From the NCBI GenBank assembly GCA_017617065.1, contig JAFZWP010000001.1:62001-126000 (forward strand): a stretch of DNA of 64,000 nt. Reading direction: 5' to 3'. Under the pieces are notes generated by a model, which saw only the letters and a list, made by a program, of their open reading frames with translations, was not told the DNA's origin and did not search any database. Both the position numbers and the translations under genes were made by a program. This stretch comes from Bacilli bacterium. Its GTDB lineage: Bacteria; Bacillota_I; Bacilli_A; ML615J-28; CAG-698. Numbering within the stretch: the stretch's first letter is position 1; the number at the start of each line of letters is the position of its first letter. This document shows positions 1-59,349 of the stretch, one piece after another.

Positions 1-206
1 CGTACTATACAATTATAATCTAGAGTTTGAATAAACCATAACAACATCTTTAATAATTTATTTGAACCCTTTGCTGAAGTTATAATTATATCTAATTCAA
101 AATGTTCGATCGATGAAGTAAGTTCAATCAAACAATCAGATAGCAATTTTAAAATTGTATCTTCTAAATCTGATTTAAGTAAAATTAATTGTTTATTATT
201 CTGCAT
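1..206 (-). CDS. Hypothetical protein, C-terminus beyond window edge
   Basis: An open frame begins with ATG at 206 and runs off the left edge without a stop (about 68 residues visible). It overlaps the end of the glycosyltransferase gene by 11 bp, so it is the next gene in the same leftward operon. The visible part is rich in Leu, Ile and Asp with no recognisable motif. Function unknown. Confidence 0.6.
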   Translation of the reverse strand, partial: MQNNKQLILLKSDLEDTILKLLSDCLIELTSSIEHFELDIIITSAKGSNKLLKMLLWFIQTLDYNCIV

Positions 207-1020
207 ATTTATCCAATAATTGTTGTGTTTTATTTATAATTTGTGTAAAGGCCGATAAACATCTATTTAAATATTGTTTATATTTAATTTTTGTTCCACT
301 TTCATTTTGTTCTTTATAATCGCTATAATAATAATAGTAACTAGCTTTATCTGGAGTTATATAACTACAATCAAAATCATAAAACAAATAATTACTCATA
401 CCATATAAAACTGCATTAAAGAATTCAGGTTTTTCATTTGTATACATCAAAATATTTTTTGAAAATACATAAAACCAGCAATGTGTTATGTCTGTCATTA
501 ATTGAAATCTTTGTTTATTTTGACTATTATAAAAACATATAACTCTATTATCAACTAGTAAAGATTCATCAATAACAATTTCATTTTTTGTATAATTTTT
601 ATCCACAACTTCTTCTTTTTCATGATAAGTTAGTAATAAACCCTTACAAACACTACTCTTATCCTCCATAATAGCTTTCATTGAGATTTCATAAAAATCA
701 TAATCTAAACTATCATCTGATTCAGGAAAAGCAAAATAATCACCCGTGGCATTATCTAGTGCTTTTTGAAAAGAAGGTAATATTCCTAAATTTATATCAT
801 TATCAATAACTTTAAAAGGTTTATTAAAGACAAACTTTTTGCTTTTTAAATCATCTAATATTTGAAGTGTTGTTTCATCTGTAGAGCAATCATTTACCAA
901 AATAACTTCTATATTTGGATAAGTTTGATTTGAAATACTATCTAAAAATCGGTATAATTTATTACCCGAATTATATATACTTGTACAGATCGATAATAAA
1001 GGAAAATCAGTATTATTCAA
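196..1020 (-). CDS. Family 2 glycosyltransferase
   Basis: 274 residues. The N-terminus matches the GT-A fold of family 2 glycosyltransferases: a first strand reading LLSICTSIYN, then a nucleotide-sugar segment with VILVNDCSTDE (about residues 35-46), and an acidic metal-binding segment PESDDSLD near residue 100. Such enzymes move a sugar from a nucleotide-sugar to an acceptor in the cytoplasm. The start is TTG at 1020, preceded by GAGG inside a strong hairpin (1027-1060). It closes the radical-SAM operon, so its acceptor could be a product of that island, for example the serine-rich protein at 4996, but that is inference. The family assignment is solid; the substrate is unknown. Confidence 0.85.
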   Translation of the reverse strand: MNNTDFPLLSICTSIYNSGNKLYRFLDSISNQTYPNIEVILVNDCSTDETTLQILDDLKSKKFVFNKPFKVIDNDINLGILPSFQKALDNATGDYFAFPESDDSLDYDFYEISMKAIMEDKSSVCKGLLLTYHEKEEVVDKNYTKNEIVIDESLLVDNRVICFYNSQNKQRFQLMTDITHCWFYVFSKNILMYTNEKPEFFNAVLYGMSNYLFYDFDCSYITPDKASYYYYYSDYKEQNESGTKIKYKQYLNRCLSAFTQIINKTQQLLDKYAE

Positions 1021-1087: not shown

Positions 1088-1942
1088 TTAAGCTCTTTCT
1101 AACCGACCTTCTTTATAATGAACAGTATATTTACTAATGTGTTCATCTGCTGAAAAATCTCCACTTACTGGAATATTATGAATAGTACGAGCACCATGTT
1201 CTGGTTCTACAATAACCATAATTTCTTTACCATCTAAAGTTTCTTTAAATCTATCAGAAATCTTCTTTTGTAAATCTTTATATTTTTCCATTCTTTCAAC
1301 AATCACATCTTCCGATACTTGATCTGGTAATGTAGCAGCTTCTGTACCTGGTCTAGCTGAAAAAGCGTGTGTCCAAAATGCAACTGGAGAAATTTCATCC
1401 AAGAAATTATAAGTATCCATAAATTCCTCTTCGGTTTCACCAGGAAAACCAGGAATAATTTCAATAGTAAATTCAACACCTTTTTCTCTAGCATAATTTA
1501 ATAATTCACGTAATTTAGCTTGTGTATGAGGTCTATGCATACGAGTCAAAGCTGTATCAGAAGCAGATTGAATAGGTACTAAACAAGTTTTTAATAGTCT
1601 TTCTTCTGAACCGATTAAATCCATTAATCTTTTAAATTTATCTTCATCAAATGGATTAACCTGTCCTACCATAAAATAAGTATTAGGAAAATCTTTTAAT
1701 AATCTTTGGCATAAACCAATCAAATCCCCTACTTCTGGATCATTATATTCAATAGAATTAACACCTTCTAATTGTAATAATTTCATACCATGATCTTCAA
1801 TACAAGATTTAACATTGGCATAAATATCTGCATAAGGTTCTGATATAGATGGGCCACGAAATTCACGAACTACACAATAACCACATTTTTGTGAGCAGCC
1901 ATCTTGAATCTTAATATAATTTGTTTTTTTCAAATCTACCAT
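1088..1942 (-). CDS. Radical-SAM methylthiotransferase-like protein lacking the N-terminal domain
   Basis: 284 residues. It closely resembles the core of MiaB/RimO methylthiotransferases: radical-SAM cysteines Cys16, Cys20 and Cys23 in GCSQKCGYC, then IQSASD, MHRPHT, GFPGETEEEF and ARPGTEAA, all family landmarks in order. The last roughly 50 residues (from LDGKEIMVIVE) look like a TRAM-type RNA-binding tail. The family's N-terminal domain, which holds a second iron-sulfur cluster, is absent; a candidate for it is encoded separately at 2606-2947. The start ATG has an AGGAG site, and a GTTCTATTTATAA motif lies at 1974-1987. Methylthiolation of tRNA or protein is likely but the substrate is unknown. 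Confidence 0.85.
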   Translation of the reverse strand: MVDLKKTNYIKIQDGCSQKCGYCVVREFRGPSISEPYADIYANVKSCIEDHGMKLLQLEGVNSIEYNDPEVGDLIGLCQRLLKDFPNTYFMVGQVNPFDEDKFKRLMDLIGSEERLLKTCLVPIQSASDTALTRMHRPHTQAKLRELLNYAREKGVEFTIEIIPGFPGETEEEFMDTYNFLDEISPVAFWTHAFSARPGTEAATLPDQVSEDVIVERMEKYKDLQKKISDRFKETLDGKEIMVIVEPEHGARTIHNIPVSGDFSADEHISKYTVHYKEGRLERA

Positions 1943-1973
1943 AATATACTCCTAAACTTATTTAGCAATTTCT

Positions 1974-1987
1974 TATAAATAGAACTC
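1974..1987 (-). promoter_or_regulatory. Candidate phage promoter (GTTCTATTTATAA motif)
   Basis: The minus strand reads AGTTCTATTTATAA about 32 bp upstream of the gene starting at 1942, just inside the end of the preceding gene. It matches the motif found upstream of all six rightward genes. Confidence 0.5.
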
Positions 1988-1988
1988 G

Positions 1989-2606
1989 TTATTTTCTATT
2001 AAATTCAAATTCTCTAGTTAATCGTTTTATAAATTTTTCTAACAAAACAAAGTTCTGATCTAAAGATTCACTTGGTTTTAGCTGTAACATCACTTGTGAA
2101 TCGAATTGCAAATGCGTCGAATTTGAAACTAGAACCAATTGATCTTGAAAAGTAGCCAATACTTTTAAAAACTTACTTAAGCTGCTTATTGATTTAAACC
2201 TAAATGAAATAAACCAATTACTAATTCCATGCCCACAACAAGAATCACAAGTCTGTATTTCATCTGTAATTTGATTTAATTGATCAACATAAGCACGTAT
2301 TGGCTCATCTATCTCATCATAGCTAAAATCTCTATATACATCTACTTCTGTCTGCCGATTTGGATGATTTCTCCAATAATCCCAAATTAAACATTCTGGA
2401 GGTTCATTTGGAATAATAGAATCTGTGTATTCTACTTCTTTAAATATAAGATTTTTATTACCATAAAACCATTTATCATCAAATGAAACGTATAAAATAT
2501 TTTTATAATTAGGTTTTAATGAAGTACATAATCCAGCTGCTATTAAAGCATTGTTTTTATCAAAAACTTGAATATATTTTCCAATATAAGCTTCTGGATT
2601 AGTCAT
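1989..2606 (-). CDS. Hypothetical protein with CDSCCGHG motif, in the split-methylthiotransferase operon
   Basis: 205 residues, no recognised family. The first 60 residues (start YIGKYIQVFDK) look like a small beta-barrel. A CDSCCGHG motif sits near residue 135 and could bind metal. The middle carries DYWRNHPN. The start codon overlaps the stop of the gene before it (TAATG), so the two are translationally coupled. It lies between a separate methylthiotransferase N-domain gene and the radical-SAM gene that probably partners it, so a role in that complex or in substrate delivery is plausible but unproven. Confidence 0.75.
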   Translation of the reverse strand: MTNPEAYIGKYIQVFDKNNALIAAGLCTSLKPNYKNILYVSFDDKWFYGNKNLIFKEVEYTDSIIPNEPPECLIWDYWRNHPNRQTEVDVYRDFSYDEIDEPIRAYVDQLNQITDEIQTCDSCCGHGISNWFISFRFKSISSLSKFLKVLATFQDQLVLVSNSTHLQFDSQVMLQLKPSESLDQNFVLLEKFIKRLTREFEFNRK

Positions 2607-2947
2607 TACTTATAGCTCTCTATATTCCACATATCTTTTTTAAATACTAATGTACCTAATTTTTCAAATTTTTTACCAATTATATCATTAATACAGCCTG
2701 TAATAAATATTTTGTAATCAGGATATTTATCTTTTAGCTCTAAAATCCTTTTACGTGATAGCATAGTATGCCATTCTACTACATTACATACCAATACAAT
2801 AACAGTAGGATCAGTTAATTGCCCTTTCATTTTATTAAACATTTTTTCACCATCAGCAATTCCCATAGGACAACCGATAGTATAAATAACCAAATTATTA
2901 TCTTCAAACTGAAATTCTTCAACATACGACTTTAATTTTGTAGACAT
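2606..2947 (-). CDS. Stand-alone methylthiotransferase N-terminal domain
   Basis: 113 residues. The layout is that of the N-terminal domain of MiaB/RimO enzymes (UPF0004): IYTIGCPMG with Cys26, VLVCNVVEW with Cys54 and IFITGCIND with Cys85. These three cysteines hold the auxiliary 4Fe-4S cluster that supplies sulfur. In known enzymes this domain is fused to the radical-SAM core; here it is a separate gene, overlapping the radical-SAM gene at 2932 by 16 bp. It resembles the protein at 3611 along its length (both end near DMWxxxxY). The assignment is by motif and context. Confidence 0.7.
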   Translation of the reverse strand: MSTKLKSYVEEFQFEDNNLVIYTIGCPMGIADGEKMFNKMKGQLTDPTVIVLVCNVVEWHTMLSRKRILELKDKYPDYKIFITGCINDIIGKKFEKLGTLVFKKDMWNIESYK

Positions 2948-3618
2948 TCAATATCCTTTTGTAATTCTTTATATTTATTCATACGGCTTAAAATAACCTT
3001 TTCTGGTATTATATCTGTATACTTTTCTGCTTCTGTGCCTGGTCGATTTGAATATACATGTGCAGTAAAATTTGTTTTAAACTGATTCAAAAAAGCATAA
3101 GTTTCATTAAACATTTCTTCTGTTTCACCGGGAAAACCTACGATTATTTCTGTTTTAATAATTATACCTTTTGTTTTCGCATAAGTAAATATTTTATATA
3201 AAGATTCTTTAGTATAAGGTCTATGCATTACTTTTAAAAGATCATTTGAAACAGATTGAATAGATATAAATAACTCTTTACTAATATTATCTGTTATTTC
3301 TACCAAATCAATCAGTTCACATACTTCTTTTTCATTAAAAGGATTTATATTATCAATAACAAAATTAATATCTCTATATTTATCAGTTAATTTTCTACAT
3401 AAATCAACAAAGTTACCCACTGAATCATGATAATACTCTAATGTATTAACTCCACACAAATCGAAAACTTTACAATCCAATTCTTTTATAAAAAAATCAA
3501 TATCTTTACATATAGCTTCATATGAATACGATTGAGATTTACCGCGTAATTCACGTACTATACAATAACTACAATTTTGCGAACAACCATCTTGAACTTT
3601 AATACTAATTTTATTCAT
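2932..3618 (-). CDS. Radical-SAM methylthiotransferase core, short form
   Basis: 228 residues, a paralogue of the gene at 1088. It has cluster cysteines Cys12, Cys16 and Cys19 in GCSQNCSYC, followed by IQSVSN, MHRPYT, GFPGETEEMF and NRPGTEAE. It ends right after the radical-SAM barrel, so it has neither the N-terminal sulfur-donor domain nor a TRAM tail. It overlaps both neighbours, each of which encodes an isolated N-domain (3611-3967 upstream, 2606-2947 downstream). A complete enzyme therefore probably needs two polypeptides. Substrate unknown. Confidence 0.82.
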   Translation of the reverse strand: MNKISIKVQDGCSQNCSYCIVRELRGKSQSYSYEAICKDIDFFIKELDCKVFDLCGVNTLEYYHDSVGNFVDLCRKLTDKYRDINFVIDNINPFNEKEVCELIDLVEITDNISKELFISIQSVSNDLLKVMHRPYTKESLYKIFTYAKTKGIIIKTEIIVGFPGETEEMFNETYAFLNQFKTNFTAHVYSNRPGTEAEKYTDIIPEKVILSRMNKYKELQKDIECLQN

Positions 3619-3967
3619 AGTTATCTAAATCCCACATATCTTCTTTTTTTATTATTTTACCTAACTTTTCAAATTTATCTTTTACTTTATCATTAATACA
3701 CCCTGTTATAAAAATCTCATGATATGGATATTTTTCTTTTAACTTTCTTATATTTAATATTACATTAGTTTTATATGCTTCAGTAACATTACAAACTAAT
3801 GCAATAATAGTAGGCTTATTTATTATATCTTTTAGTTTATAAAATAATTTAAGCGCATCTGCATTAGCTACTAAACATCCACCGTTATATACAATAAGAT
3901 TATTAGTTGTATATATATCACAAGTAGATTCTGTTTCTATTTCAAGATTCTCATCCTTTAATAGCAT
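3611..3967 (-). CDS. Second stand-alone methylthiotransferase N-terminal domain
   Basis: 118 residues, a paralogue of the protein at 2606. It keeps the three cysteines expected of the UPF0004 domain: Cys31 (NGGCLVAN), Cys59 (ALVCNVTE) and Cys90 (FITGCIND). It overlaps the stop of the upstream radical-SAM gene and the start of the downstream one by a few bases. Expected role: carry the auxiliary iron-sulfur cluster for the radical-SAM protein at 2932. The function is inferred from motif order and position. Confidence 0.68.
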   Translation of the reverse strand: MLLKDENLEIETESTCDIYTTNNLIVYNGGCLVANADALKLFYKLKDIINKPTIIALVCNVTEAYKTNVILNIRKLKEKYPYHEIFITGCINDKVKDKFEKLGKIIKKEDMWDLDNYE

Positions 3968-4974
3968 TATTCTATATTCTCCAAATTTTTAATAAATTTT
4001 TCTATATCACAATAGATACAATGCCTATCATCATTAACATAGCATAAACCATCTACTAGATGACCACAATCTAAATAAACATCTCTAGTGTCATTCCATC
4101 TATCTTCAATATTTATATCTTCTACATATATAGTTAAATTTCTAGACCTCATCTCTGGCTGATGTATAAGATTTTGGACTTTTTGTAATCCATACTTTTT
4201 ATAGAATACTTTTAAAAATTTTAAAAACAAACTACGATCTTCTATAAAAAACTTTTTGGGAAATTGATCTAGTCTTTTTAACATCATAGCTCGGTAATCT
4301 TTAATACCTGTGGCAGTTGGGCAATCTTTTCTTGAAATACTTGGATACCTAAAATCGATTGTCGAATATTCTGTAATAAAATCAAAATAATTTGGATTTT
4401 CTATTAATTTTTCAATGGTATCTTGTGTTAAAATAGTTTGTGTATGAACTTCTACAAATGGAAAATCTTCTTTTAGATTTTTAATATTATTTAACCACAA
4501 TTCTTCTTTTTGTGAATTTCTAAATCTACCTATAGTATCATAGGAAGTGCAAATACGAATACATTGATTTGCATTATAATTTTTTTCAAAAAAACAGGAT
4601 AAGCATTGATATAAATCTATAGGATTATTATATAATAATGCAGTTGCTAGCCAAACTTCTTTAATTTTATTTTCTTCTAATAGCGTATTTAATAAATCAA
4701 ATAATGCAAACCATTCTTTGTTTAATTCTTGTGGAACTTGTCCATCAAACAATTCACCGCCGATTAAACCAACCGCATTGTATTCTTTAAATGTTTCTGG
4801 ATTATTTAATACTTCTATTGTTTTAAGTATACTATTTCGTTTAAAATCTAAAGAAGTAATTCTTTGTGTTCCTTTAAGATAGCAATATTCACATCCATTA
4901 TTACAATCGGGCCATAACTCAAATTGTATGGCCTGTATAGCTTCTCTCGAAGTTGAATCTAATGAATATGAAAT
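3967..4974 (-). CDS. Radical-SAM protein with C-terminal cysteine cluster, apparent ATT start
   Basis: About 335 residues if started at ATT 4974. The radical-SAM motif CNNGCEYC (Cys24, Cys28, Cys31) is followed by LIGGELFD, the SAM-binding GGE. The C-terminus has CGHLVDGLC and CIYC, a probable extra iron-sulfur or zinc site. An AGGAGG site at 4981-4986 is followed in frame by GCT AAA ATT; there is no ATG, GTG or TTG before the radical-SAM motif, and the frame opens only after a TAA at 4987-4989. A TTG near 4752 would remove the catalytic cysteines. It resembles the protein at 7155. Substrate unknown; a peptide-modifying role is possible. Confidence 0.75.
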   Translation of the reverse strand: MSYSLDSTSREAIQAIQFELWPDCNNGCEYCYLKGTQRITSLDFKRNSILKTIEVLNNPETFKEYNAVGLIGGELFDGQVPQELNKEWFALFDLLNTLLEENKIKEVWLATALLYNNPIDLYQCLSCFFEKNYNANQCIRICTSYDTIGRFRNSQKEELWLNNIKNLKEDFPFVEVHTQTILTQDTIEKLIENPNYFDFITEYSTIDFRYPSISRKDCPTATGIKDYRAMMLKRLDQFPKKFFIEDRSLFLKFLKVFYKKYGLQKVQNLIHQPEMRSRNLTIYVEDINIEDRWNDTRDVYLDCGHLVDGLCYVNDDRHCIYCDIEKFIKNLENIE

Positions 4975-4995: not shown

Positions 4996-5649
4996 TTATT
5001 CTAAATTCATATATGCAATAAACATAGAAGATGAACAGTTTGAAGAACTTGAACTTGAAGAAGAGCTAGAAGAAGATGAACTTGAGCTAGAAGATGAACT
5101 AGATGAAGATGAACAGCTATATGCATAATTTAAACTCACAGAGCGTTTATTAGCTGCACCCGAAGCATAGCAAGCTGCCAAACTATCAATATACTGTGTA
5201 ATATCTGTAGCTGTTGCAACATTTGTATCAAAATTCATACTAGTTGGTGGTGTAATTGTTCCTTGATTATACCATACAATATTCCAAGCTCCAGTATCTT
5301 CATTATGAAGTATAAGAACTCGCATTGCTAAATATTTATAAGCACAAGACATGAAATTAATAATGCCACGATATGATACAATTTGACTAGCTTTTGCATT
5401 AATACCACAACTTGTCATATAATCATTAAAATCAGTTTCTACAGTAGATTGTGCTACAGCATTACCCCAAGTATCACTAGTTGAAATAACACATTTAGCA
5501 TAAGGTGTACCGGATTCTTTACCAACAGTTCTAGACCAACCAGATTTTAATGACGCATCTAAATTGGTATTATTACCAATATTTCTACATCTTTCTGTCA
5601 TAAAACTCATAACTATTGATTTTAAATCACCATATGTAAGAGTTGCCAT
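4996..5649 (-). CDS. Hypothetical protein with C-terminal polyserine tract flanked by cysteines
   Basis: 217 residues. The first 180 share a layout with the next gene (CRNIGNN versus CCNIGGF; GINAKAS versus GIDARSD), so the two are paralogues. The C-terminus is a Cys, then 24 consecutive serines by my codon count, then Asn-Cys-Ser-Ser-Ser and a short tail. The serine codons are mixed (TCA, TCT, AGT, AGC), which argues for selection on the protein rather than repeat slippage. It sits directly before a radical-SAM gene and in the same operon as a glycosyltransferase. It could be a virion protein or a substrate of the modification enzymes; neither is proven. Confidence 0.75.
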   Translation of the reverse strand: MATLTYGDLKSIVMSFMTERCRNIGNNTNLDASLKSGWSRTVGKESGTPYAKCVISTSDTWGNAVAQSTVETDFNDYMTSCGINAKASQIVSYRGIINFMSCAYKYLAMRVLILHNEDTGAWNIVWYNQGTITPPTSMNFDTNVATATDITQYIDSLAACYASGAANKRSVSLNYAYSCSSSSSSSSSSSSSSSSSSSSSSSSNCSSSMFIAYMNLE

Positions 5650-5664
5650 AATATTTTCTCCGCT

Positions 5665-6303
5665 TTAACTTAAATAACATCTATGATTAACTGGGTTATT
5701 TTCACGATCAATTAAACCATAATTAACACCATCATGAACAATACCTTCACGAACTACTTTTCTAATACCCGCGTCTGATATAAAACCAGGTACATTATTA
5801 GGTTGAATAGGATTTACAGTATATTTAGGTGTACATGTACCTGCTATATATTTTGTACCTTGAAAAACACCTGGATTTGTTTCAAGTGTATTATAAATTT
5901 GTCTTCTACTATAAATAGGTTTAAGATGATAAGACATAAACTGTTGATATAAACCAATAGCTTGACCCATATTTTCCATTTGAATTACAGTATCTGATCT
6001 AGCATCAATTCCCGCCGCTGCTAAGAAAGTAGTCCATTCTGAATTAACTGTGGCTTCTGTTACAGTAGAAATCAAATTACTTGGATTTGCATAATATACT
6101 GAACTTACAATAGTACCACCAGAAGCACCAGATGGTCTACTACGAGTTTGCGTATACACTGCAACTTGACTTTGACCAGAACGTAATCTGGTTGGTACAT
6201 TAGAAGCAAATCCTCCAATATTACAGCATACATTTTTTAACGCTGCCAAGCATCTTGTTGAAAAATCTGCCCAAGTTATAACAGAATTACTAGCTATTGA
6301 CAT
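5665..6303 (-). CDS. Hypothetical protein, paralogue of the polyserine protein
   Basis: 212 residues. The N-terminal 130 residues align with the protein at 4996 (WADFSTRC, CCNIGG, a LRSG segment, AAAGIDARSD), but the C-terminus is different: no serine tract, instead a Pro/Asn-rich stretch (NPIQPNNVPG) and a final HDGVNYGLIDR segment. It is not a known family to me. The size, gene pairing and lack of catalytic motifs would suit a structural protein. Confidence 0.75.
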   Translation of the reverse strand: MSIASNSVITWADFSTRCLAALKNVCCNIGGFASNVPTRLRSGQSQVAVYTQTRSRPSGASGGTIVSSVYYANPSNLISTVTEATVNSEWTTFLAAAGIDARSDTVIQMENMGQAIGLYQQFMSYHLKPIYSRRQIYNTLETNPGVFQGTKYIAGTCTPKYTVNPIQPNNVPGFISDAGIRKVVREGIVHDGVNYGLIDRENNPVNHRCYLS

Positions 6304-6308
6304 TAATA

Positions 6309-7067
6309 TTATTCCTCTGGTTTATTATCTATTACAGTTTTTACGGCTTTTTCCATAAGGGCTGTACCAATCATATCCATAATAGTATTTGTAAATACAA
6401 ATTTTTCAGCAATTTGACCTAAATAACCTAATGAATTCAAAACGATCTTTTTAGTTTCCCAAATTGCTGGATCTTTTACTGATGAAAGGATTTTTGCTAA
6501 AATAGTTACATCCATAGAATTAAATAAGTATACATATATATTTTCCATAGCAACAGCATTTGGATTATTTTCTACTGCTTCTACCAAGTTGCAAGTTTTA
6601 AGCATACTTACATAATATTCAGCAGTTTTATATGTAACATCTTTAATTTCTTGTTCAAGATCATCAAATATATCCAAAAATTCTACTTCATCATTTAAGA
6701 AAACTTGTTCGTGTTCAAAATATGCTTCTTCAAAAGTATTATAACCTTTAATTAAACAAAAAATATTCATTAAAAATACAGGATTTTTTAATTCCGGTGT
6801 TTTTAATGCACAACCCAAAGCTTCTTTACGGTAGTCATAAGATAAATTTTTAATTAAAATAGTTAAAGTATGGCCAGAATCAATTTCATATTGCCATAAC
6901 TGTTTTAAACTTTCTAAAAATACTTCTTTATCTATAGTATCAATAAATTTTACAGTTATTGAAGCTTGTTCATTTTCTTCTTTAGCGAAGTTTTCTTTAA
7001 ATACTTCAATAGCTTTTGCTACTTGTTCTAAATTTTCAATTTCGAAAGTTCTGATTTTTTTATCCAT
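6309..7067 (-). CDS. Hypothetical acidic protein
   Basis: 252 residues, strongly acidic and probably helical, with no motif I recognise. Its ribosome site (AAGGAG) lies just after a GTTCTATATAAATA motif, and it is followed 5 bp later by the gene pair at 5665 and 4996, so it leads that transcription unit. The length and the lack of Cys clusters set it apart from its radical-SAM neighbours. It could be an assembly chaperone or a partner of the paralogous pair; this is speculative. Confidence 0.7.
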   Translation of the reverse strand: MDKKIRTFEIENLEQVAKAIEVFKENFAKEENEQASITVKFIDTIDKEVFLESLKQLWQYEIDSGHTLTILIKNLSYDYRKEALGCALKTPELKNPVFLMNIFCLIKGYNTFEEAYFEHEQVFLNDEVEFLDIFDDLEQEIKDVTYKTAEYYVSMLKTCNLVEAVENNPNAVAMENIYVYLFNSMDVTILAKILSSVKDPAIWETKKIVLNSLGYLGQIAEKFVFTNTIMDMIGTALMEKAVKTVIDNKPEE

Positions 7068-7154: not shown

Positions 7155-8105
7155 CTAATTTGTTTTATATTTTATTAGTTTTTGTATTTCACAAGGGTAA
7201 CATCTATCACTATCCGCAAAACACCTTGTGAAATTTACCGAATGGCCACATTCTCCTAGTTTAGATGAACAATATACAAAATCTTTTTCTTTTTTATTAT
7301 ATTCATATAGTAATTTAGGCTGTTTTAAAGCGATATTATCACCGTAGCTCTTTAAATATCCAGGCATAAGATTATCTATATGCAATAAAGTTTCAAATAC
7401 TGTCGATTTTTTAGGCATTTGTGGAGCTTTATCATCATCTAAACGAATATAAGGAATTGTATTAATATCTACTCTAAAGTACTCTATCCAATCTTTTATA
7501 GTAAAAGTATCCTTATCTTGCTCTTTTAGATATTCAAGCAAATAATCAGCACCAAATTTATCTTCGCATATACGCTTACAAGCTTCATTTGTTAATACAG
7601 TATTTACTACTACTTTTAAATCTTTATAGGTATCTGTAATATATTTTAAATTATGATAGAATAATAATTCATGCTCTTTACTTGTAAATCTACCTAATAT
7701 ATCATAGGAAGTAGCAAATTTTAGTCTGGGTAATAGTCCATTTGCTTCAAATAATGCTAAAAACCAATCTAATAAACCAATATCTTTATATAAAAGGTTT
7801 GTATTGATATATAGCAAATCTATTTTATTTAAACATAGTTTATCTTTAATTTCTTTTATTAAAGCAATAAATTCTTTTTTAACATCTTCATTAACAATAT
7901 CAAAGATTTCACCACCTACTAATAAGATATGATTACCTTCTTTAAATTGTTTATTTAAGAAAGATTTGCATTTTTCTATTGAATCTATTTGCTGGTTTAG
8001 AGTAAGTATTTTATCATCTATTTTGCGTTCATGATTGCGCTGGTGACAAAATGTACAATTATTGCCACAGTTATTCCATAAAAGAAATTCATAAACGCTT
8101 TGCAT
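7155..8105 (-). CDS. Radical-SAM protein with C-terminal cysteine cluster
   Basis: 316 residues. The radical-SAM cysteines are at 13, 17 and 20 (CGNNCTFC), with the GGE SAM-binding motif in LLVGGEIFD. The C-terminus has CGHSVNFTRC and CYPC, matching the arrangement in the protein at 3967, so the two are paralogues that bracket the putative substrate pair (4996, 5665). It overlaps the start codon of its neighbour (stop/start TAATG), so it is coupled to the phosphatase at 8105. The C-terminal cysteines resemble a SPASM or twitch-like extra cluster, common in peptide-modifying radical-SAM enzymes, but the family cannot be fixed by eye. Confidence 0.8.
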   Translation of the reverse strand: MQSVYEFLLWNNCGNNCTFCHQRNHERKIDDKILTLNQQIDSIEKCKSFLNKQFKEGNHILLVGGEIFDIVNEDVKKEFIALIKEIKDKLCLNKIDLLYINTNLLYKDIGLLDWFLALFEANGLLPRLKFATSYDILGRFTSKEHELLFYHNLKYITDTYKDLKVVVNTVLTNEACKRICEDKFGADYLLEYLKEQDKDTFTIKDWIEYFRVDINTIPYIRLDDDKAPQMPKKSTVFETLLHIDNLMPGYLKSYGDNIALKQPKLLYEYNKKEKDFVYCSSKLGECGHSVNFTRCFADSDRCYPCEIQKLIKYKTN

Positions 8106-12752: not shown

Positions 12753-13661
12753 ATGCGAAATTTATTAACATTAATGGATTATTCTACTGAAACAATTGAA
12801 AAATTAATTATAGATGCTCATGCTATAAAAGAAACAAAACAAACATCAGCTTGGTCTAAATGTAGTTATCCTTATATATTAGAAGGTAAAAATATCTTGT
12901 TATATTTTGAAAAACCTTCTTTACGTACACATTTAACATTTGAAATGGCTGTGCGTAATTTAGGTGGTAATCCTATATATTTTGATAATTCAAAGCAGAT
13001 GGGAAGAGAACCAGATGTTGATATAGCAAAGAATATAGCTAGATGGGGTTTAGATGGTATAGTAGCGAGAGTATTTAGTCAAACTACATTAGAAACATTT
13101 ATGAAATATACTAATGTACCAGTTATTAATGCACTGTCGGATTTGTATCATCCATGTCAAGCTTTAGCTGATTATATGACTATGAAAGAACTTACCGGTA
13201 AAAATTGGAAAGATTTAAAACTTGCTTATATAGGTGAGCCTAATAATGTATCTAATTCATTAATGATTATGGCAGCTAAATTAGGTACTACATTTACTAT
13301 TTGTTGTCCAGCGAGTATGAGTCCGGATTATTTGTTATTAAAGCAATGCCAAAAGTTAAATCCTAATATTAAAGTATCTTGTTTTATTGAAGACATTAAA
13401 GATTTTGATGTAATATATGGTGATACTTGGTATTCAATGGGTGATGAATATACGCCAAATAAAGCTTTAATTTTACAAGCTTATCAAATAAATAAAGCTT
13501 TATTGACTGCTTTAAATATTCCTTATGTATTACATTGTTTACCTTGTCATAGAGATCAAGAAATTACAGATGAAGTGATACAAGAACATCCAGAAATCTA
13601 TCAATTGGCTGAAAATAGATTATGGACAGAAATGTCAGTATTACATTATTTATTCTACTAA
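12753..13661 (+). CDS. argF: Ornithine carbamoyltransferase
   Basis: 302 residues, full family length. The carbamoyl-phosphate motif is SLRT (56-59; the usual form is STRT), then HPCQALAD (133-140), the ornithine-binding SMG loop (TWYSMG, 225-230) and HCLP with Cys263 (261-264). The SMG loop and HCLP identify ornithine rather than aspartate carbamoyltransferase. It makes citrulline from ornithine and carbamoyl phosphate, or runs in reverse in arginine catabolism with ATP gain through carbamate kinase. No other arginine gene is in the window, so it is an auxiliary metabolic gene, transcribed alone, with strong AAAAGGAG and a terminator at 13664-13690. Confidence 0.93.
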   Translation: MRNLLTLMDYSTETIEKLIIDAHAIKETKQTSAWSKCSYPYILEGKNILLYFEKPSLRTHLTFEMAVRNLGGNPIYFDNSKQMGREPDVDIAKNIARWGLDGIVARVFSQTTLETFMKYTNVPVINALSDLYHPCQALADYMTMKELTGKNWKDLKLAYIGEPNNVSNSLMIMAAKLGTTFTICCPASMSPDYLLLKQCQKLNPNIKVSCFIEDIKDFDVIYGDTWYSMGDEYTPNKALILQAYQINKALLTALNIPYVLHCLPCHRDQEITDEVIQEHPEIYQLAENRLWTEMSVLHYLFY

Positions 13662-13789: not shown

Positions 13790-15025
13790 TTAGATATTAC
13801 CTAATATACTAATATCGCAATCTGCTACAAACAATCTATTAGTTATATCATGTACTATTTGTTTTGCAGATTTTTTAACCAATTTATTTTCTTTAGTAAC
13901 ATTACAATCACAAGGATTATACATTGGATTACAATATCTAAAGAAGTTGTCTTTTGCTATATCTGTCGATTTTAATCCTATAGTACCAGCAAAATTTACT
14001 GCGCGTTCAACATCTTTATCTGTAATTATCTTAGGAAGGTTAGTAATTACTTTATCTACTGCTTCTAAGTATTGTTTTAGATGTTTCTTTTCTGTACTAG
14101 ATTTAATCAACAAGATTTGTGGTAATCTATCATTAAAAGTATGTGGAAATAATGTTACGAATTCTGCATGAATACTATAACATACACCATACTTTTCACG
14201 AACTTCTCTAAATAACACTGCAGACAATCCAGCAGAAAGTACATTTTCATATAGATCAAGCATACGTTGAGTAGCAATCATATCTGGCATATAATAAGCA
14301 TGTAATACTTGTACTTGAGCTGTATCTTTCTTCTGCTTATATGGAGATTTTTTCTTTATATCTAAATCAATCTTAGTATTATCCCAAATAGTACGCATAT
14401 CTTTTCCAGTAGAAGCATATTCATCAAAGTATTTTTCGACAATCTTACAAACTTTACGAAATGATAAATGTGAGCATACTGAAATAACCATATTTTTTGG
14501 AATATAGGTATTTATGATAAAGTCATTTACTTGCTTTAATGTAATTGCTTTAACACTTTTAATAGAGCCAGCTACATCATCCATACCTAAAAATTCACGA
14601 TAATAATTAGTTTCATTTGTAGCTTCAAAGTCATCTTCATACATAGCAATTTCTTGACATACTACTGATTTTTCTTTTTCAAATTCTTTTTTATTAAGAT
14701 TTTTATTTAATAACATATCAGCATATATTTCAGCACATTTTTCAAGTTTATCTGGTAAACATTCAAAATGAAAACAAACATTATCATAATTAGTCCAAGC
14801 ATTAATAATAGCACCTTGTTGTTCTAATTCTTCAGAAATTTGTTTAGTAGTTCTTTCAAAACTAGCTTTAAACATTAAATGTTCAACCAAATGATTAATA
14901 CCTTTTTCTTTTGGACCTTCTAAAGCACTACCTGTTAAAACATTTACTTGAAAAGCATCTTTATTATTTACAGCATTCTTTTCATATAAGATTACTAAGC
15001 CATTATCTAATGTTTTTGTTTTCAT
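13790..15025 (-). CDS. M16-family zinc metallopeptidase
   Basis: 411 residues, one two-domain M16 half. The inverted zinc motif HLVEH lies near residue 47, with the downstream acidic helix KEKSVVCQEIAMYEDD supplying the third ligand. Family-typical segments such as NAWTNYDNVCFHFECLP follow. M16 proteases (processing peptidase/PqqF group) cut peptides; an M16 enzyme in a phage that also encodes radical-SAM proteins could trim modified peptides, but nothing links the two loci directly. No signal peptide, so cytoplasmic. It has its own promoter at 15061-15089. Confidence 0.88.
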   Translation of the reverse strand: MKTKTLDNGLVILYEKNAVNNKDAFQVNVLTGSALEGPKEKGINHLVEHLMFKASFERTTKQISEELEQQGAIINAWTNYDNVCFHFECLPDKLEKCAEIYADMLLNKNLNKKEFEKEKSVVCQEIAMYEDDFEATNETNYYREFLGMDDVAGSIKSVKAITLKQVNDFIINTYIPKNMVISVCSHLSFRKVCKIVEKYFDEYASTGKDMRTIWDNTKIDLDIKKKSPYKQKKDTAQVQVLHAYYMPDMIATQRMLDLYENVLSAGLSAVLFREVREKYGVCYSIHAEFVTLFPHTFNDRLPQILLIKSSTEKKHLKQYLEAVDKVITNLPKIITDKDVERAVNFAGTIGLKSTDIAKDNFFRYCNPMYNPCDCNVTKENKLVKKSAKQIVHDITNRLFVADCDISILGNI

Positions 15026-26930: not shown

Positions 26931-29132
26931 TTAAGCCATACTTTGTAAAGCCAAATTTCTAATATCGATAATAGATAATGTATCTAAATCTTTACCTGAA
27001 TTTTTTAACTCTGTCATAAATCTAAACATAGTATTCATTAATTCAGTTTGTTCAGAATTAACATTTTTAGCAGCAAAGTATTTATCTGTACTACCTTTCA
27101 TTATATATTCTTTCATTCTACGCATATCTTTCCAGAATTTATAGAAAGGAGTTTTATATTTAATCATAAAATTATTCTGATCTACAAATACAAATCCTTC
27201 TATTTCTTCATGAAAATCTTTATCAAATGCTTCAACAAAAGATTTCAATTCATCAAAGGTATTAAACACTTTACACATTTCTTTTGGTTTACATCCAATT
27301 TCTTTAGCCAATTGCCATACTTCATCATATGATTTGAATATATCATTAAAGTCATTTTGTACTATATCTAATAATACAACTTTTTCTTTTGTATATTCAA
27401 TAATATGCGGATCATTAATTGGATCTACACATTCAAATACAGCAGAACAATTATTAGTTTTTAAGTATTCTTTTAATTTATCACAATCTACAGTCTTTTT
27501 TAATATACGCTCAAAGTTTTCTTTATATTCACCTTGATTAGTAGATTTAGATGCAATAAATAATTTATCATTCCATACAGATACAATACCCAAAAAGCCA
27601 TTTTCTTTTAAATATGCTGTTACTGGAAAAACTAATTTATTTTGTAAATTTCTCCATTGAGTAGAAGGATGTTGTTCTGCCTCAAAGAATTTTGGATAAC
27701 TACGTGCTACTACATTATTTGTTTTACTATCAACAAATAAACCCCTAGCAGTAGTAGTTAATTTATTCCATTTTTGACTATAAAAAGCTTCTCTACTAAA
27801 ATTATAAGATACTATCCCATCTTCTAATTCTTTTTTATGAATTAAAGTACTATGATCTAATTCACTTACAATAGATTTATTATGAGTATTTTCATGTAAA
27901 TCTCTCGCATTAAAGATTGTATTTTTAATTTCAATAGGTTTAATGTGCATTTCCGTATCATAAGATAATTCTACAATACGTAAATTACCACCATATTCTA
28001 TATCATTTTCTAAGTTAATATTACAACCATCTATAGAAATAGTTGGATTACCTTTTACATTACGATGACCATGCACATTATAATAATGATGACCTATGCT
28101 TTGAACAGCCCAAGCTTCATTCATTTTAGCAAAAGCTGCTTCAACTTGATCTAAATCTTCATAATTGCCTACACCTTTAATACATTGCATAGCAGGTGTT
28201 TTATAAGACAAATGACTGCTTAAACCACCATGTGTTATATTAAAGAAATAATGATCAAAATCTTTACCAAATATAACTTTAACCGCTACTTTTAATTTTC
28301 TAGTAAATTTACTCAATTGATCTTTTAATTCACCAAATTGTATTAAAGAATCACGAAAAGCTTCTGTCATTTTAGCATTATTACCATCTCTGACAAAATT
28401 CTTAGCCCATATTTCATGATTACCTTGTAAAAATATAAAGTTTTCTTTTTCACAATTATCTAAACAAAATTGCAATACTTCTTTACCTTGTATTCCACGA
28501 TCAAAGTAATCACCAACAAAGATATATAAGTTTTTATCAGAGATAGGATTAGCATCAAAGTATTCTTTTACAGGTTGATAACAATTATGTATATCACCAA
28601 ATACAATTACTTTATCCCATTCGTTACCATTTATTTTATATATAAAATCATCCAAATTTGGTAATTTATCATAATCGTATATTTCATACTTTCCCTGTAA
28701 AGGTACTTTGATTTGATTATACATACGGTCTAATACTTCTTCTGGTACTCTTTTATAAGATTCACGTCTTAAGTTTCTTTCTTTACATATATCTAAATCT
28801 ATAGAAGAAAAATCAACAATAACCATACGATAGTTATATTCTTTACATAACTTTTTATAATCTTTTAAATAAGATTCTTTAGTATGCGTAGCATCTACAA
28901 TAGTAAAATCACCATTCTTCATACGATCTTCTATTCTTTCTCTAAAGAAAGCCCAGACTTGTTTATCGTATCTGGAAGAAATAGCATATTTACCATTAAT
29001 ATTTTGTTCTGGCGCAGCAAACATCAAACGAATATTATCTGTACTTAAAGCATATTGTTCTAAATCTTGGTCTTTTAACCAAGTAGATTTACCACAACCA
29101 GGAATACCACGCAATACTAATAATATTTTCAT
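26931..29132 (-). CDS. Trifunctional RNA-repair enzyme: polynucleotide kinase, metallophosphatase, RNA ligase
   Basis: 733 residues, three enzymes in one chain. Residues 1-165: P-loop kinase (GIPGCGKST, 9-17) of the 5'-OH polynucleotide kinase type. Residues about 172-400: calcineurin-like phosphatase (GDIHN 179-183, GDYFDRG 207-213, GNHE 237-240). Residues about 440-733: T4 Rnl1-like RNA ligase (TARGLFVD, nucleotidyl Lys509 in LKENG, EGFVF near 645, IKYK near 657). The order matches bacterial Pnkp, but the ligase part looks like phage Rnl1. It would heal and seal RNA broken by host anticodon nucleases. The promoter is at 29156-29186. Confidence 0.9.
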   Translation of the reverse strand: MKILLVLRGIPGCGKSTWLKDQDLEQYALSTDNIRLMFAAPEQNINGKYAISSRYDKQVWAFFRERIEDRMKNGDFTIVDATHTKESYLKDYKKLCKEYNYRMVIVDFSSIDLDICKERNLRRESYKRVPEEVLDRMYNQIKVPLQGKYEIYDYDKLPNLDDFIYKINGNEWDKVIVFGDIHNCYQPVKEYFDANPISDKNLYIFVGDYFDRGIQGKEVLQFCLDNCEKENFIFLQGNHEIWAKNFVRDGNNAKMTEAFRDSLIQFGELKDQLSKFTRKLKVAVKVIFGKDFDHYFFNITHGGLSSHLSYKTPAMQCIKGVGNYEDLDQVEAAFAKMNEAWAVQSIGHHYYNVHGHRNVKGNPTISIDGCNINLENDIEYGGNLRIVELSYDTEMHIKPIEIKNTIFNARDLHENTHNKSIVSELDHSTLIHKKELEDGIVSYNFSREAFYSQKWNKLTTTARGLFVDSKTNNVVARSYPKFFEAEQHPSTQWRNLQNKLVFPVTAYLKENGFLGIVSVWNDKLFIASKSTNQGEYKENFERILKKTVDCDKLKEYLKTNNCSAVFECVDPINDPHIIEYTKEKVVLLDIVQNDFNDIFKSYDEVWQLAKEIGCKPKEMCKVFNTFDELKSFVEAFDKDFHEEIEGFVFVDQNNFMIKYKTPFYKFWKDMRRMKEYIMKGSTDKYFAAKNVNSEQTELMNTMFRFMTELKNSGKDLDTLSIIDIRNLALQSMA

Positions 29133-29227: not shown

Positions 29228-30082
29228 TTATTTATTTAGATTCATTAAAATCGGCATAGAATCACCTGTCATAATTTGAGGTAATTTACCATCCCATTTT
29301 TGAACAAATTCATAATTAACAAGTTTTGGATTATTAGCTAAAGCATTTGCACGAATACGCATGGACTCAGCTTCCGCTTTTGCACTCGTAACTTGTTGTT
29401 TAGCTTTTTGCTCAACTTGTTTAGTACGATTAGCTTCTTCAAGAGCTGCTTGTTCTGCTACTACTTTCTTTTCAATAGCGCTTTCAAATTGATCTGAATA
29501 ATCAATGTTAATCATTTGAAAATTAGTAATAGATACCGGATAATTATGTTCAATCATACGAGCTTGTAAAGACGTTAAAATATTACTAGCTACTTTATCA
29601 CGGTTGGCAACCATTTGATCCGCATTCCAAGTACCTACTTCAGCTTTTACTGCTTGTTCCAAATTAGGATATAAAATACGTTCCTGCCATTGATTACCAT
29701 AGGTTTTATATGTTTCTACTATATCATTACTAATTAAATTATAAGAATAAGATACCGTAATTCTAGCTGTCTGAATATCTTTAGTATAAGTTTCGGTTTT
29801 ATAATCATCACGGATTGTTTTTACATCAAACCGTTTTACATCTTGAATTATAGGCCATTTTACGTGTAAACCAGCTTCATAGATGTTATTAGACGCTTTA
29901 CCAAATGTAGTTAAAATAGCTCTTTCACCTTCTGCTACAGTAAACCAAGAACCAAAAATGAAAATAAGTCCTATAATCCATAAAACAGCTGTACATATTA
30001 CAGATAAGAAAACATCGAACATGTCATCATTTTCCATAATATATCCATTATTTGGTTTAAAATAAAATTTATTAAACTTCAT
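29228..30082 (-). CDS. SPFH/Band-7 (prohibitin-like) membrane protein
   Basis: 284 residues. A transmembrane helix (about residues 24-48, VFLSVICTAVLWIIGLIF) leads into an SPFH domain (VAEGERAILTTFGKA, GLHVKWPIIQDVKRFD), then a long coiled coil with repeated Ala/Glu/Lys (EQAALEEANRTKQVEQKAKQ). The family forms membrane-bound rings that control proteases or scaffolds. Phage-encoded SPFH proteins are found in several large phages and may guard the membrane or block host defence. The next gene upstream is a two-helix membrane protein. Confidence 0.9.
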   Translation of the reverse strand: MKFNKFYFKPNNGYIMENDDMFDVFLSVICTAVLWIIGLIFIFGSWFTVAEGERAILTTFGKASNNIYEAGLHVKWPIIQDVKRFDVKTIRDDYKTETYTKDIQTARITVSYSYNLISNDIVETYKTYGNQWQERILYPNLEQAVKAEVGTWNADQMVANRDKVASNILTSLQARMIEHNYPVSITNFQMINIDYSDQFESAIEKKVVAEQAALEEANRTKQVEQKAKQQVTSAKAEAESMRIRANALANNPKLVNYEFVQKWDGKLPQIMTGDSMPILMNLNK

Positions 30083-30094
30083 CTTATACTCCTT

Positions 30095-30286
30095 TTATTT
30101 TTTGTTTTTCTTTTTAGGTTTTATAAATCGAATTAATTCAACCAAGTAAATCAATCCTGCAATCGGTAAAGCTATAACTACTATTGGCCATATCCATAAC
30201 ATAAGCCAACAAATGAAAAACCCACCAACCAACAAAGCAATAATACCTAATATAGTTAAGCCTAAAATTCTAAAAAATTCGAACAT
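30095..30286 (-). CDS. Small two-helix membrane protein
   Basis: 63 residues, almost wholly hydrophobic with two transmembrane segments and a basic tail (KPKKKNKK). The 12-bp gap to the SPFH gene suggests joint action at the membrane. Confidence 0.7.
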   Translation of the reverse strand: MFEFFRILGLTILGIIALLVGGFFICWLMLWIWPIVVIALPIAGLIYLVELIRFIKPKKKNKK

Positions 30287-30287
30287 A

Positions 30288-30635
30288 TTATCTTCCTTTG
30301 TTAGTAGGATAAATTAAAATTGTATTAGATTTGTTAACTTTTTTATTTCTATGCTTTTTATCTAATTCAGCTATAGCAATATAATTTTTCAAGTACATTT
30401 CTAATTTTTTAACTTTATCTAGATCTAAGCATACTTGATCTGTATAAGGTTTACCATGTTTCAATGTATACCAAATATGTCTAAATCTATGCCAAAACGA
30501 AGGTTTAGCATAAGCATATGCAAATACTGACATATATAAACCTTCATCCAAATAATCTGGATCTTGTGGTTCCAAAACAATATATTCTGATCCACAATCA
30601 CATTGTACAAATTCTTTAAAGTCTTTCTTTTTCAT
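30288..30635 (-). CDS. Hypothetical protein
   Basis: 115 residues, coupled to the membrane protein gene. An N-terminal CDCGSEYI pair of cysteines suggests a small metal site; the C-terminus is basic. Transcribed from the promoter at 30661-30689. Confidence 0.65.
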   Translation of the reverse strand: MKKKDFKEFVQCDCGSEYIVLEPQDPDYLDEGLYMSVFAYAYAKPSFWHRFRHIWYTLKHGKPYTDQVCLDLDKVKKLEMYLKNYIAIAELDKKHRNKKVNKSNTILIYPTNKGR

Positions 30636-56056: not shown

Positions 56057-57394
56057 TTATTTATTTTCTACTTCGAATGGATATACTTCACCTTTAATCA
56101 AAGTAGGTTTCTTGAAGTCCTTATGATCTATACACATAAACACACAAGGACAGATGCTGGTAGTTTCATGATCACCATCTAATGGATCATAGAAGTCTGA
56201 TAAGATCATTAACATATCAATCTTATCTTTACCTTTATAATGATCTTTGATAAACTTAAAGTTTTCTCGCATATCATTACCACCATCTGATACAACCTTA
56301 AAGTCTCTTAACTTAGACTTATTAGATCCAGTTAATTTCAGTAAGGTTTCTTCATATACTTTACTACCGCAACACCATAAATCAATTTCGAATGACTTAA
56401 ACTGTTGCAAGATAGTAAACACATGATCCATCATTGTATTGATTTCTTTATCAGATATAGATCCAGATGTATCAATAGCAACACCTATGTGAAGCTTTGG
56501 TGTAGTACCAGCACTAGGTAAGATGATATTGTTTGCTATACCTGCACGACTTGGTTTGTTCCAAGTATAATTTGCTTTGATATAACCACGAATATATTTA
56601 CTTAATGCTTTACGCCAGTTGAAAGGCACTGGTTTATACGTTCTTGCGATTGTTCTATCCAGCGCAGATTCACCTAAGCCATTCTGTTTACTACCATAAA
56701 CTTCAGACATCTTAGATATTACTTCATTCTTAACATCTTCATCATCTATTGGTAAGTGATCATCCAAAGGTATCATACCATTCTTACCATTACCAGATCC
56801 ACCTCCATTTCCTGGTTTCATAAGAGTCCCATTATTTTCTTGTTTCTCTTTTTCAACCAATCGTTTGAAGATTTCTTCTGCTTGTAAGTCTTTGTATTCT
56901 GATTCATACAAAACCCAATCTGGCATATTACCTACTGGATTTCTTTTACGATCACCATAAGTAGGATCTGTAGATTCATTATTATGCAGCAACGCATTGA
57001 TTTCATAATCTGTTGCTTGATTCCACAATTCCCATTTACGCTTACCTTCATCTGTACCTAAGTCTTCTTTATACACACCGACATTTTTCATACGATCAAA
57101 AGTAAGACCAAGTAAATGCAACAATTCATGACACACTATAAATTGCATTTCTTTTTGTGTAATCGTTCTGTTAACTTGTTTACCGGTATCATCAGTAATG
57201 ATTGGATTCGTATTAAACTCTTCAACCATTTCTTCGTTAATCGTAATCGCTCTACCATCAGTCCAAGCTACAGCTGAATCTTTACCACCTTTAACAAACT
57301 TACAACCAATCTTAGTTATAAGTTCTGCATATATAGGAAAGTCAATAACCAAATTGATCATTGCATTTTCCCATATTTCTCTTACATTAGACAT
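56057..57394 (-). CDS. VWA-domain metallopeptidase-like protein (MoxR partner)
   Basis: 445 residues. An N-terminal HELLH (89-93) zinc motif is followed by a Gly/Asn-rich linker (about 194-207) and a C-terminal von Willebrand A domain with an intact MIDAS (DTSGS, 308-312). This is the COG3864-like architecture usually paired with a MoxR AAA+ ATPase, here encoded three genes upstream at 58084. Such pairs act as chaperone-like machines that load metal or remodel complexes. Confidence 0.85.
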   Translation of the reverse strand: MSNVREIWENAMINLVIDFPIYAELITKIGCKFVKGGKDSAVAWTDGRAITINEEMVEEFNTNPIITDDTGKQVNRTITQKEMQFIVCHELLHLLGLTFDRMKNVGVYKEDLGTDEGKRKWELWNQATDYEINALLHNNESTDPTYGDRKRNPVGNMPDWVLYESEYKDLQAEEIFKRLVEKEKQENNGTLMKPGNGGGSGNGKNGMIPLDDHLPIDDEDVKNEVISKMSEVYGSKQNGLGESALDRTIARTYKPVPFNWRKALSKYIRGYIKANYTWNKPSRAGIANNIILPSAGTTPKLHIGVAIDTSGSISDKEINTMMDHVFTILQQFKSFEIDLWCCGSKVYEETLLKLTGSNKSKLRDFKVVSDGGNDMRENFKFIKDHYKGKDKIDMLMILSDFYDPLDGDHETTSICPCVFMCIDHKDFKKPTLIKGEVYPFEVENK

Positions 57395-57803
57395 CTTCTT
57401 CCTCCTTTACTTGTTCTACTTCTTCGTTAGATACCACAAATCCATTGCTTAATTCCTTACGAATTTCTTCATCAGATAATCCTTTGGCTTTTAAGTCATT
57501 GATTATGCTATCTAATTTCTTTTGTGCTGCCTTACGAAGGTTTTCATCAGCTTCTTCTTTAGCTTTCTTTTCTTCAGCTTCGAGCTCTTCGACATTCTCC
57601 GTCGCATAGGCAGGGATGTCATAATTACCTTCAGCTTTGATTTCCTTCATAATATCAGTGCATTCATCTATTGAATCGAATTTAGTGGCTGCTTTATAGC
57701 TGTAGATAGGTTCAACGACTGTGACTATATTATCGTTATTATCTATCACTCTGTCTATACCCAACCAATACTTCTTTTCAATATCTTTAATAACGTATGA
57801 CAT
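57387..57803 (-). CDS. Hypothetical coiled-coil protein in the MoxR-VWA cassette
   Basis: 138 residues from ATG 57803 (AAGGAG upstream). The second half is a lysine/glutamate coiled coil (EEKKAKEEADENLRKAAQ), with a SDEEIRKELSNG end. It overlaps the VWA gene by 8 bp, which ties it to the cassette. Confidence 0.65.
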   Translation of the reverse strand: MSYVIKDIEKKYWLGIDRVIDNNDNIVTVVEPIYSYKAATKFDSIDECTDIMKEIKAEGNYDIPAYATENVEELEAEEKKAKEEADENLRKAAQKKLDSIINDLKAKGLSDEEIRKELSNGFVVSNEEVEQVKEEEDV

Positions 57804-57813
57804 CTTACACTCC

Positions 57814-58023
57814 TTATTGTTTATTATGTTTATAACTATCTTCAATTTCTTGTTTCCATTCTTCACAAGCTTTTTCAGTTTCTTTCCAGTATTGTAAGAT
57901 AGTATCAACAAAATCTTTTAAGATTGTTTTACCATCTTCTACATCTTTATTGCGCTGGATAAAAGCTTTTAATTCTTGTGGAAGAATTTCATCGATATAA
58001 ACAAATGGTTTTGGTTTAGCCAT
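57814..58023 (-). CDS. Hypothetical small protein in the MoxR-VWA cassette
   Basis: 69 residues, helical. A strong hairpin (CTAGGAAGA/TCTTCCTAG, 58044-58074) lies just before its ribosome site. Function unknown. Confidence 0.62.
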   Translation of the reverse strand: MAKPKPFVYIDEILPQELKAFIQRNKDVEDGKTILKDFVDTILQYWKETEKACEEWKQEIEDSYKHNKQ

Positions 58024-58083
58024 ATTAATCTCCTTTTGGTTAGACTAGGAAGACACCTAAGCATCTTCCTAGCCACTTGCTAC

Positions 58084-59322: not shown

Positions 59323-59349
59323 AGTTTTCTCCTTTTTGTTGTATGTCAA

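Follow-up and report, generated by a model that had tools for sequence, protein, structure and literature searches.

Known methylthiotransferases (MTTs) are three-domain single chains whose substrates are tRNA or ribosomal protein S12 (PMC10702137). In these enzymes, the auxiliary cluster of the N-domain is where the methylthio group is assembled, and transfer follows once the radical-SAM core has taken a hydrogen (PMC10702137). The phage locus described here shares with MtaB, MiaB and RimO (TIGR00089, the best family for both halves) the three cysteines of UPF0004 as well as the CxxxCxxC and GFPGETEE motifs. In contrast with these enzymes, it encodes two chains with a shortened N-domain and a missing or reduced TRAM. 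In addition, its equivalog scores are below cut-off and it belongs to a separate clade.

The window analysed is a stretch of 64,000 nucleotides corresponding to bases 62001-126000 of contig C6 (245,208 bp), from assembly G000 (1.73 Mb). Judged from its sequence, C6 is a giant-phage genome. Its phage major capsid protein has relatives in 15 viral contigs, and GroEL- and RecA-like genes were recognised by eye. The contig also carries 18 tRNAs in one array and one separate tRNA-Arg, with MiaB and MtaB types included. Because a whole giant-phage contig was binned in a bacterial assembly of this size, with an estimated contamination of 5%, the bacterium need not be the host of the phage.

Two pairs of genes on the minus strand encode separate MTT halves. 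N2 (3611-3967, 118 aa) and N1 (2606-2947, 113 aa) are stand-alone MTT N-domains. R2 (2932-3618, 228 aa) is a stand-alone radical-SAM core without TRAM, and R1 (1088-1942, 284 aa) is a radical-SAM core with a short C-terminal TRAM-like remnant. The order of transcription is T (3967-4974), N2, R2, N1, X (1989-2606) and R1. T overlaps N2 by 1 nt, N2 overlaps R2 by 8 nt, R2 overlaps N1 by 16 nt and N1 overlaps X by 1 nt; a 46-nt gap lies between X and R1. The original prediction described a set of alternating, overlapping genes. Its coordinates hold, but the operon continues beyond 3967 into T, which encodes a further radical-SAM protein.

Shine-Dalgarno-like sites precede N2, N1 and R1. Reading on from N2 or N1 into an R gene is impossible, and stops crowd the frames above R2 and R1. 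A single gene that was mis-called or frame-shifted is thus ruled out by the own start sites and by the stops filling the other frames. The splitting of an MTT into separate N and R genes is real and is seen in two independent pairs. Separate ORFs, domain matches and individual start sites all bear out the two N-domain/radical-SAM pairs initially proposed. The pairs are paralogous, with 44% identity between N1 and N2 and 43% between R1 and R2.

The two small proteins had been singled out because they keep the three cysteines of the MTT N-domain. UPF0004 matches and an alignment of N1, N2, a G126 relative and seven ordinary MTTs agree on this point. In Pfam, N1 reaches 29.4 bits (E 8e-7), above the 27-bit cut-off of UPF0004, and N2 reaches 24.5 bits (E 3e-5), just below it. 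N2 is devoid of the last part of UPF0004 and retains the three cysteines in the alignment. Invariance is limited to G-C, C and G-C, which correspond to two glycines and the three cysteines of the cluster. Compared with ordinary MTTs, the GCxxN, NTC and YG motifs and the arginine of the SR motif are changed. AlphaFold2 gave a confident model for N1 (pLDDT 88, pTM 0.82). A Foldseek search of the PDB with this model retrieved the N-domains of MiaB, MtaB and RimO with probabilities of 0.96, 0.94 and 0.85, respectively, and superimposed it on RimO with a TMq of 0.60 and 22% identity. The structural match expected for the N-domain is found by probability, but its E values are only 0.1-0.3, which alone are not significant, and STAS folds outrank the MTT N-domains by E.

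The radical-SAM cores are more readily recognised. Both R1 and R2 contain the CxxxCxxC, GFPGETEE and RPGTEA motifs, as originally read. They match Pfam Radical_SAM with 68 and 67 bits, respectively, and no other MTT domain is matched in either protein. Their TIGR00089 matches (NCBIfam) cover positions 139-383 of the 429-position profile for R1 (170 bits) and 142-363 for R2 (160 bits), and therefore begin past the N-domain of the profile. After TIGR00089, MtaB scores best, with every equivalog score under half its cut-off. R2 stops after the radical-SAM core. About 46 C-terminal residues of R1 are not recognised by Pfam, which also misses the TRAM domain in the MtaB of the assembly.

The assembly encodes ordinary MiaB, RimO and MtaB. 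R1 and R2 share 26-30% identity with these proteins and form a clade of their own (100/100). A recent capture of a host MTT is ruled out by this low identity and separate clade. In a tree of radical-SAM cores that contains MiaB, RimO and MtaB but no e-MtaB sequences, the R1, R2, R3 and R4 cores cluster apart from these three families (92/93; 96/92 without the long branch). This places R1 and R2 outside the characterised MTT subfamilies compared.

Truncation of the N-domains, loss of TRAM in R2 and alteration of several motifs could be the marks of decay, the split genes being remnants of a single-chain enzyme. We consider this highly improbable. The frames are open and have ribosome-binding sites, and both pairs keep the six cluster cysteines and GFPGETEE despite being only 43-44% identical. 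A functional split MTT-type enzyme is, in our opinion, a strongly favored reading. N2 with R2 and N1 with R1 would form two paralogous two-subunit enzymes. The small N subunit would carry the sulfur-supplying auxiliary iron-sulfur cluster, and the R subunit the radical-making SAM cluster. As the two sets of cluster cysteines are kept on separate chains, N and R would have to meet to work. Such an assembly is likely because the two domains are fused in G126 and form one chain in G128. A natural two-part MTT would allow the sulfur-donating and radical halves to be studied and exchanged separately.

The protein encoded at 1989 was initially suggested as a possible third part of the enzyme. This protein, X (minus strand, 205 aa), lies inside the operon and belongs to a SCCGHG family. 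Its paralogs, at 36114-36755 of C6 and 208331-208708 of G104, are distant from any MTT gene, so that X is probably not an MTT subunit. A TYW3-like fold, considered from the SCCGHG motif, was discarded since only a weak match of a homolog was obtained (E 0.03). The AlphaFold2 model of X is of low confidence (pLDDT 54) and gave no significant fold match.

T (minus strand) appears to be a better candidate than X for a third part, as the G126 chain joins a relative of T to N and R. It is a phrog_1802-type radical-SAM protein (E 1.5e-15) with a C-terminal four-cysteine motif. No ATG, GTG or TTG codon is found ahead of its CxxxCxxC motif. The likely start is an ATT codon located 5 nt after AAGGAGG. 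For the last domain of the G126 chain, T is by far the closest match (36% identity over 322 aa, E 9e-55, 50 bits above the next one). A search of INPHARED with T found no relative.

Twelve further viral records were searched over their whole length, and an MTT was present in one, G126. The corresponding protein, P0001, is a 688-aa single chain in which N and R are followed by another radical-SAM domain. Of two module-bearing contigs from bacterial assemblies, one, a 283 kb phage contig in G128, also encodes an MTT. This protein, P0002, is an unsplit N-R protein of 457 aa flanked by module genes. P0001 and P0002 resemble the split pairs in clade, in module context and in the absence of TRAM. 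They differ from them in being single chains and, for P0001, in being fused to the second radical-SAM domain. None of the 15 capsid relatives has an MTT. Outside C6, the N alignment retrieved only full-length MTT frames of 421-457 aa from 100 related genomes. No additional split case was found in viral scans with the N alignment, the R alignment and T, or in a search of genome contigs with N. Among INPHARED phages, N1 has no match and R1 has distant ones, of which MaAM05 was inspected and proved full-length. The open-access literature, which leaves most subscription papers outside, contains neither a split MTT nor a comparable phage module. The earlier statement that no split form is described thus agrees with the literature, the related genomes and the INPHARED phages covered here.

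In an alternative reading, the split proteins are tRNA enzymes making ms2 at A37 of phage or host tRNAs. tRNA is the substrate of most known MTTs (PMC10702137). The 18-tRNA array and the tRNA-Arg of the phage, with their MiaB and MtaB types, would offer substrates, and MtaB is the top-scoring known equivalog for both halves. However, MiaB, MtaB and RimO are already in the host and the phage contig has no MiaA. Relatives with similar arrays, G112 (15 tRNAs) and G104 (18 tRNAs), have no MTT. In G126, the MTT is fused to an island-type radical SAM and lies at 40-42 kb inside an island, about 50 kb or more away from the tRNAs at 91 and 218 kb. Moreover, all three MiaB domains contact tRNA (PMC10702137). 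The loss of TRAM in R2, P0001 and P0002 argues against a tRNA substrate, though not decisively. We regard a tRNA-modifying role as unlikely, while giving it some weight. More generally, a tRNA or ribosomal-protein substrate is disfavoured by the context and the lost TRAM. The phage MTT appears to track the module rather than tRNA arrays, in a sample of three MTT-bearing phages in which several contigs are fragments.

The module is defined by radical-SAM genes adjoining proteins with a Ser/Cys-rich C-terminal tail. Two related proteins are encoded in the island and one of them terminates in SCSSS...NCSSSMFIAYMNLE. The tailed one is the candidate substrate (4996-5649, minus strand, 217 aa; ending SCSSS...SSSNCSSSMFIAYMNLE), and its tail motif is shared with proteins adjoining radical-SAM clusters on other phage contigs. 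The other (5665-6303, minus strand) is its paralog without the Ser/Cys tail. It is followed by a conserved module protein (6309-7067, minus strand) with homologs in the G104 and G128 modules. A second radical-SAM protein of the window (7155-8105, minus strand) belongs to the same phage family as T (phrog_1802, E 7e-12) and is 63% identical to a G126 module protein.

Tails of this family consist of a Ser/Cys tract of 14-34 residues and a FIAYMNL-like motif, (M/I/L)F(I/V)A(Y/H)(M/F/Q)(N/D/K)(I/L). Several radical-SAM genes always adjoin them, as observed at 4996-5649 of the window, at 29233-30554 of G126 and at 189375-190199 of G104. Further members are found on contigs L083, L085-L088, L093, L098-L100 and L106. 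When the radical-SAM proteins were used as queries, some twelve additional phage contigs emerged in which 3-6 radical-SAM genes adjoin Ser/Cys-tail proteins. Across the C6, G126 and G104 sequences examined, tails combining Ser/Cys and FIAY are confined to radical-SAM clusters. The tail serines are encoded by 262 TCN and 132 AGY codons. This mixture argues against a simple repeat at the nucleotide level, and serine itself appears to be selected. Tail-fibre-like genes are frequent near the modules.

This arrangement recalls radical-SAM RiPP systems (e.g. PapB-type SPASM maturases), in which several radical-SAM genes also adjoin a small protein with a Cys/Ser-rich C-terminus. The G128 module contains a SPASM protein. 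For one module member, the top-scoring families are PapB and sulfatase maturases, although the scores are far under the cut-offs. In contrast to RiPP systems, the candidate substrate here is a phage protein of about 200 aa and an MTT-type enzyme is added. Most radical SAMs of the modules are of phrog_1802 type, with a four-cysteine motif instead of a full SPASM domain. The motif is C-terminal and present in most, but not all, of these proteins.

We propose that the N/R enzymes, probably with T, modify the Ser/Cys-rich C-terminal tail of the 4996-5649 protein. The chemistry would be comparable to that of RimO on a protein side chain, with insertion of sulfur or of a methylthio group. Adjacent IscS/NifS cysteine desulfurase-like and NifU_N genes at 540-2365 of C6, outside the window, form a possible iron-sulfur assembly set. 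Their products could feed sulfur and clusters to the enzymes. The Ser/Cys-tail protein seems the most economical substrate. Against this reading, only three phages are known to bear an MTT, split in one of them, some residues conserved among ordinary MTTs are changed, and in G128 a tRNA array begins about 8 kb from the module. We judge the tail-module pathway moderately probable, and give about an even chance to the pathway and the functional split enzyme both holding as stated. Since most modules have no MTT, the MTT step would be optional. The association of an MTT with a conserved Ser/Cys-tail module suggests that phages modify proteins in a way that is apparently undescribed. The modified proteins could belong to the virion or bind receptors, and standard proteomics would be able to test this. 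Somewhat more tentatively, giant phages of gut and rumen bacteria may encode a multi-enzyme radical-SAM system that remodels a poly-Ser/Cys tail. The split MTT would then be an exchangeable tool in this system, the first MTT to act on a viral protein in separate subunits and with no TRAM.

The split MTT genes sit in an island of about 29 kb (about 41-70 kb of C6) that is absent at the matching place in the close relatives G112 and G101. Besides the MTT genes, the island encodes ten phrog_1802-type radical-SAM proteins of one phage family, two NodU-type carbamoyltransferases, two DegT aminotransferases, a sugar-nucleotide dehydratase and glycosyltransferases. One of the latter (196-1020, minus strand; Pfam Glycos_transf_2, 86.9 bits) belongs to family 2 and is the next gene downstream of R1. 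The carbamoyltransferases, aminotransferases and glycosyltransferases make possible another target, namely a sugar or small molecule that the island produces and that is subsequently linked to some component of the phage or host. NDP-sugar dehydratase, DegT, NodU-type and glycosyltransferase genes lie together in the C6 island, and some of them also in that of G126. However, no such genes are present in the 18 kb inspected around the G128 MTT module, and many modules hold tail proteins and radical SAMs alone. A sugar or small-molecule substrate therefore seems improbable to us, and the tail protein is still preferred.

Several other genes were noted. The two carbamoyltransferases of C6 (49343-50992 and 54972-56597, outside the window) are of NodU/TobZ type and adjoin DegT aminotransferases and the sugar dehydratase. 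G126 has one carbamoyltransferase of this type, with a DegT protein 76% identical to that of C6. An ornithine carbamoyltransferase-like phage gene is found at 12753-13661 of the window (plus strand) and is absent from the relatives G112, G104 and G126. Some modules contain proteins of about 340 aa (L067:10263-11303, L086:12425-13477, L088:12417-13430 and L083:11799-12803) that have no Pfam match and, by eye, might be PLP enzymes. A second type of tail, CHSNCHSNCH...RSRR, occurs at 218752-219525 of G112 and in L087:1678-2367. These proteins adjoin a different set of radical SAMs, with C-termini that look SPASM-like by eye. Finally, inspection of the window by eye suggested an M16-like peptidase (13790-15025), a kinase/phosphatase/ligase-like RNA repair protein (26931-29132), an SPFH-like protein (29228-30082) and a pair formed by a VWA protein and a MoxR-like ATPase (56057-59349).
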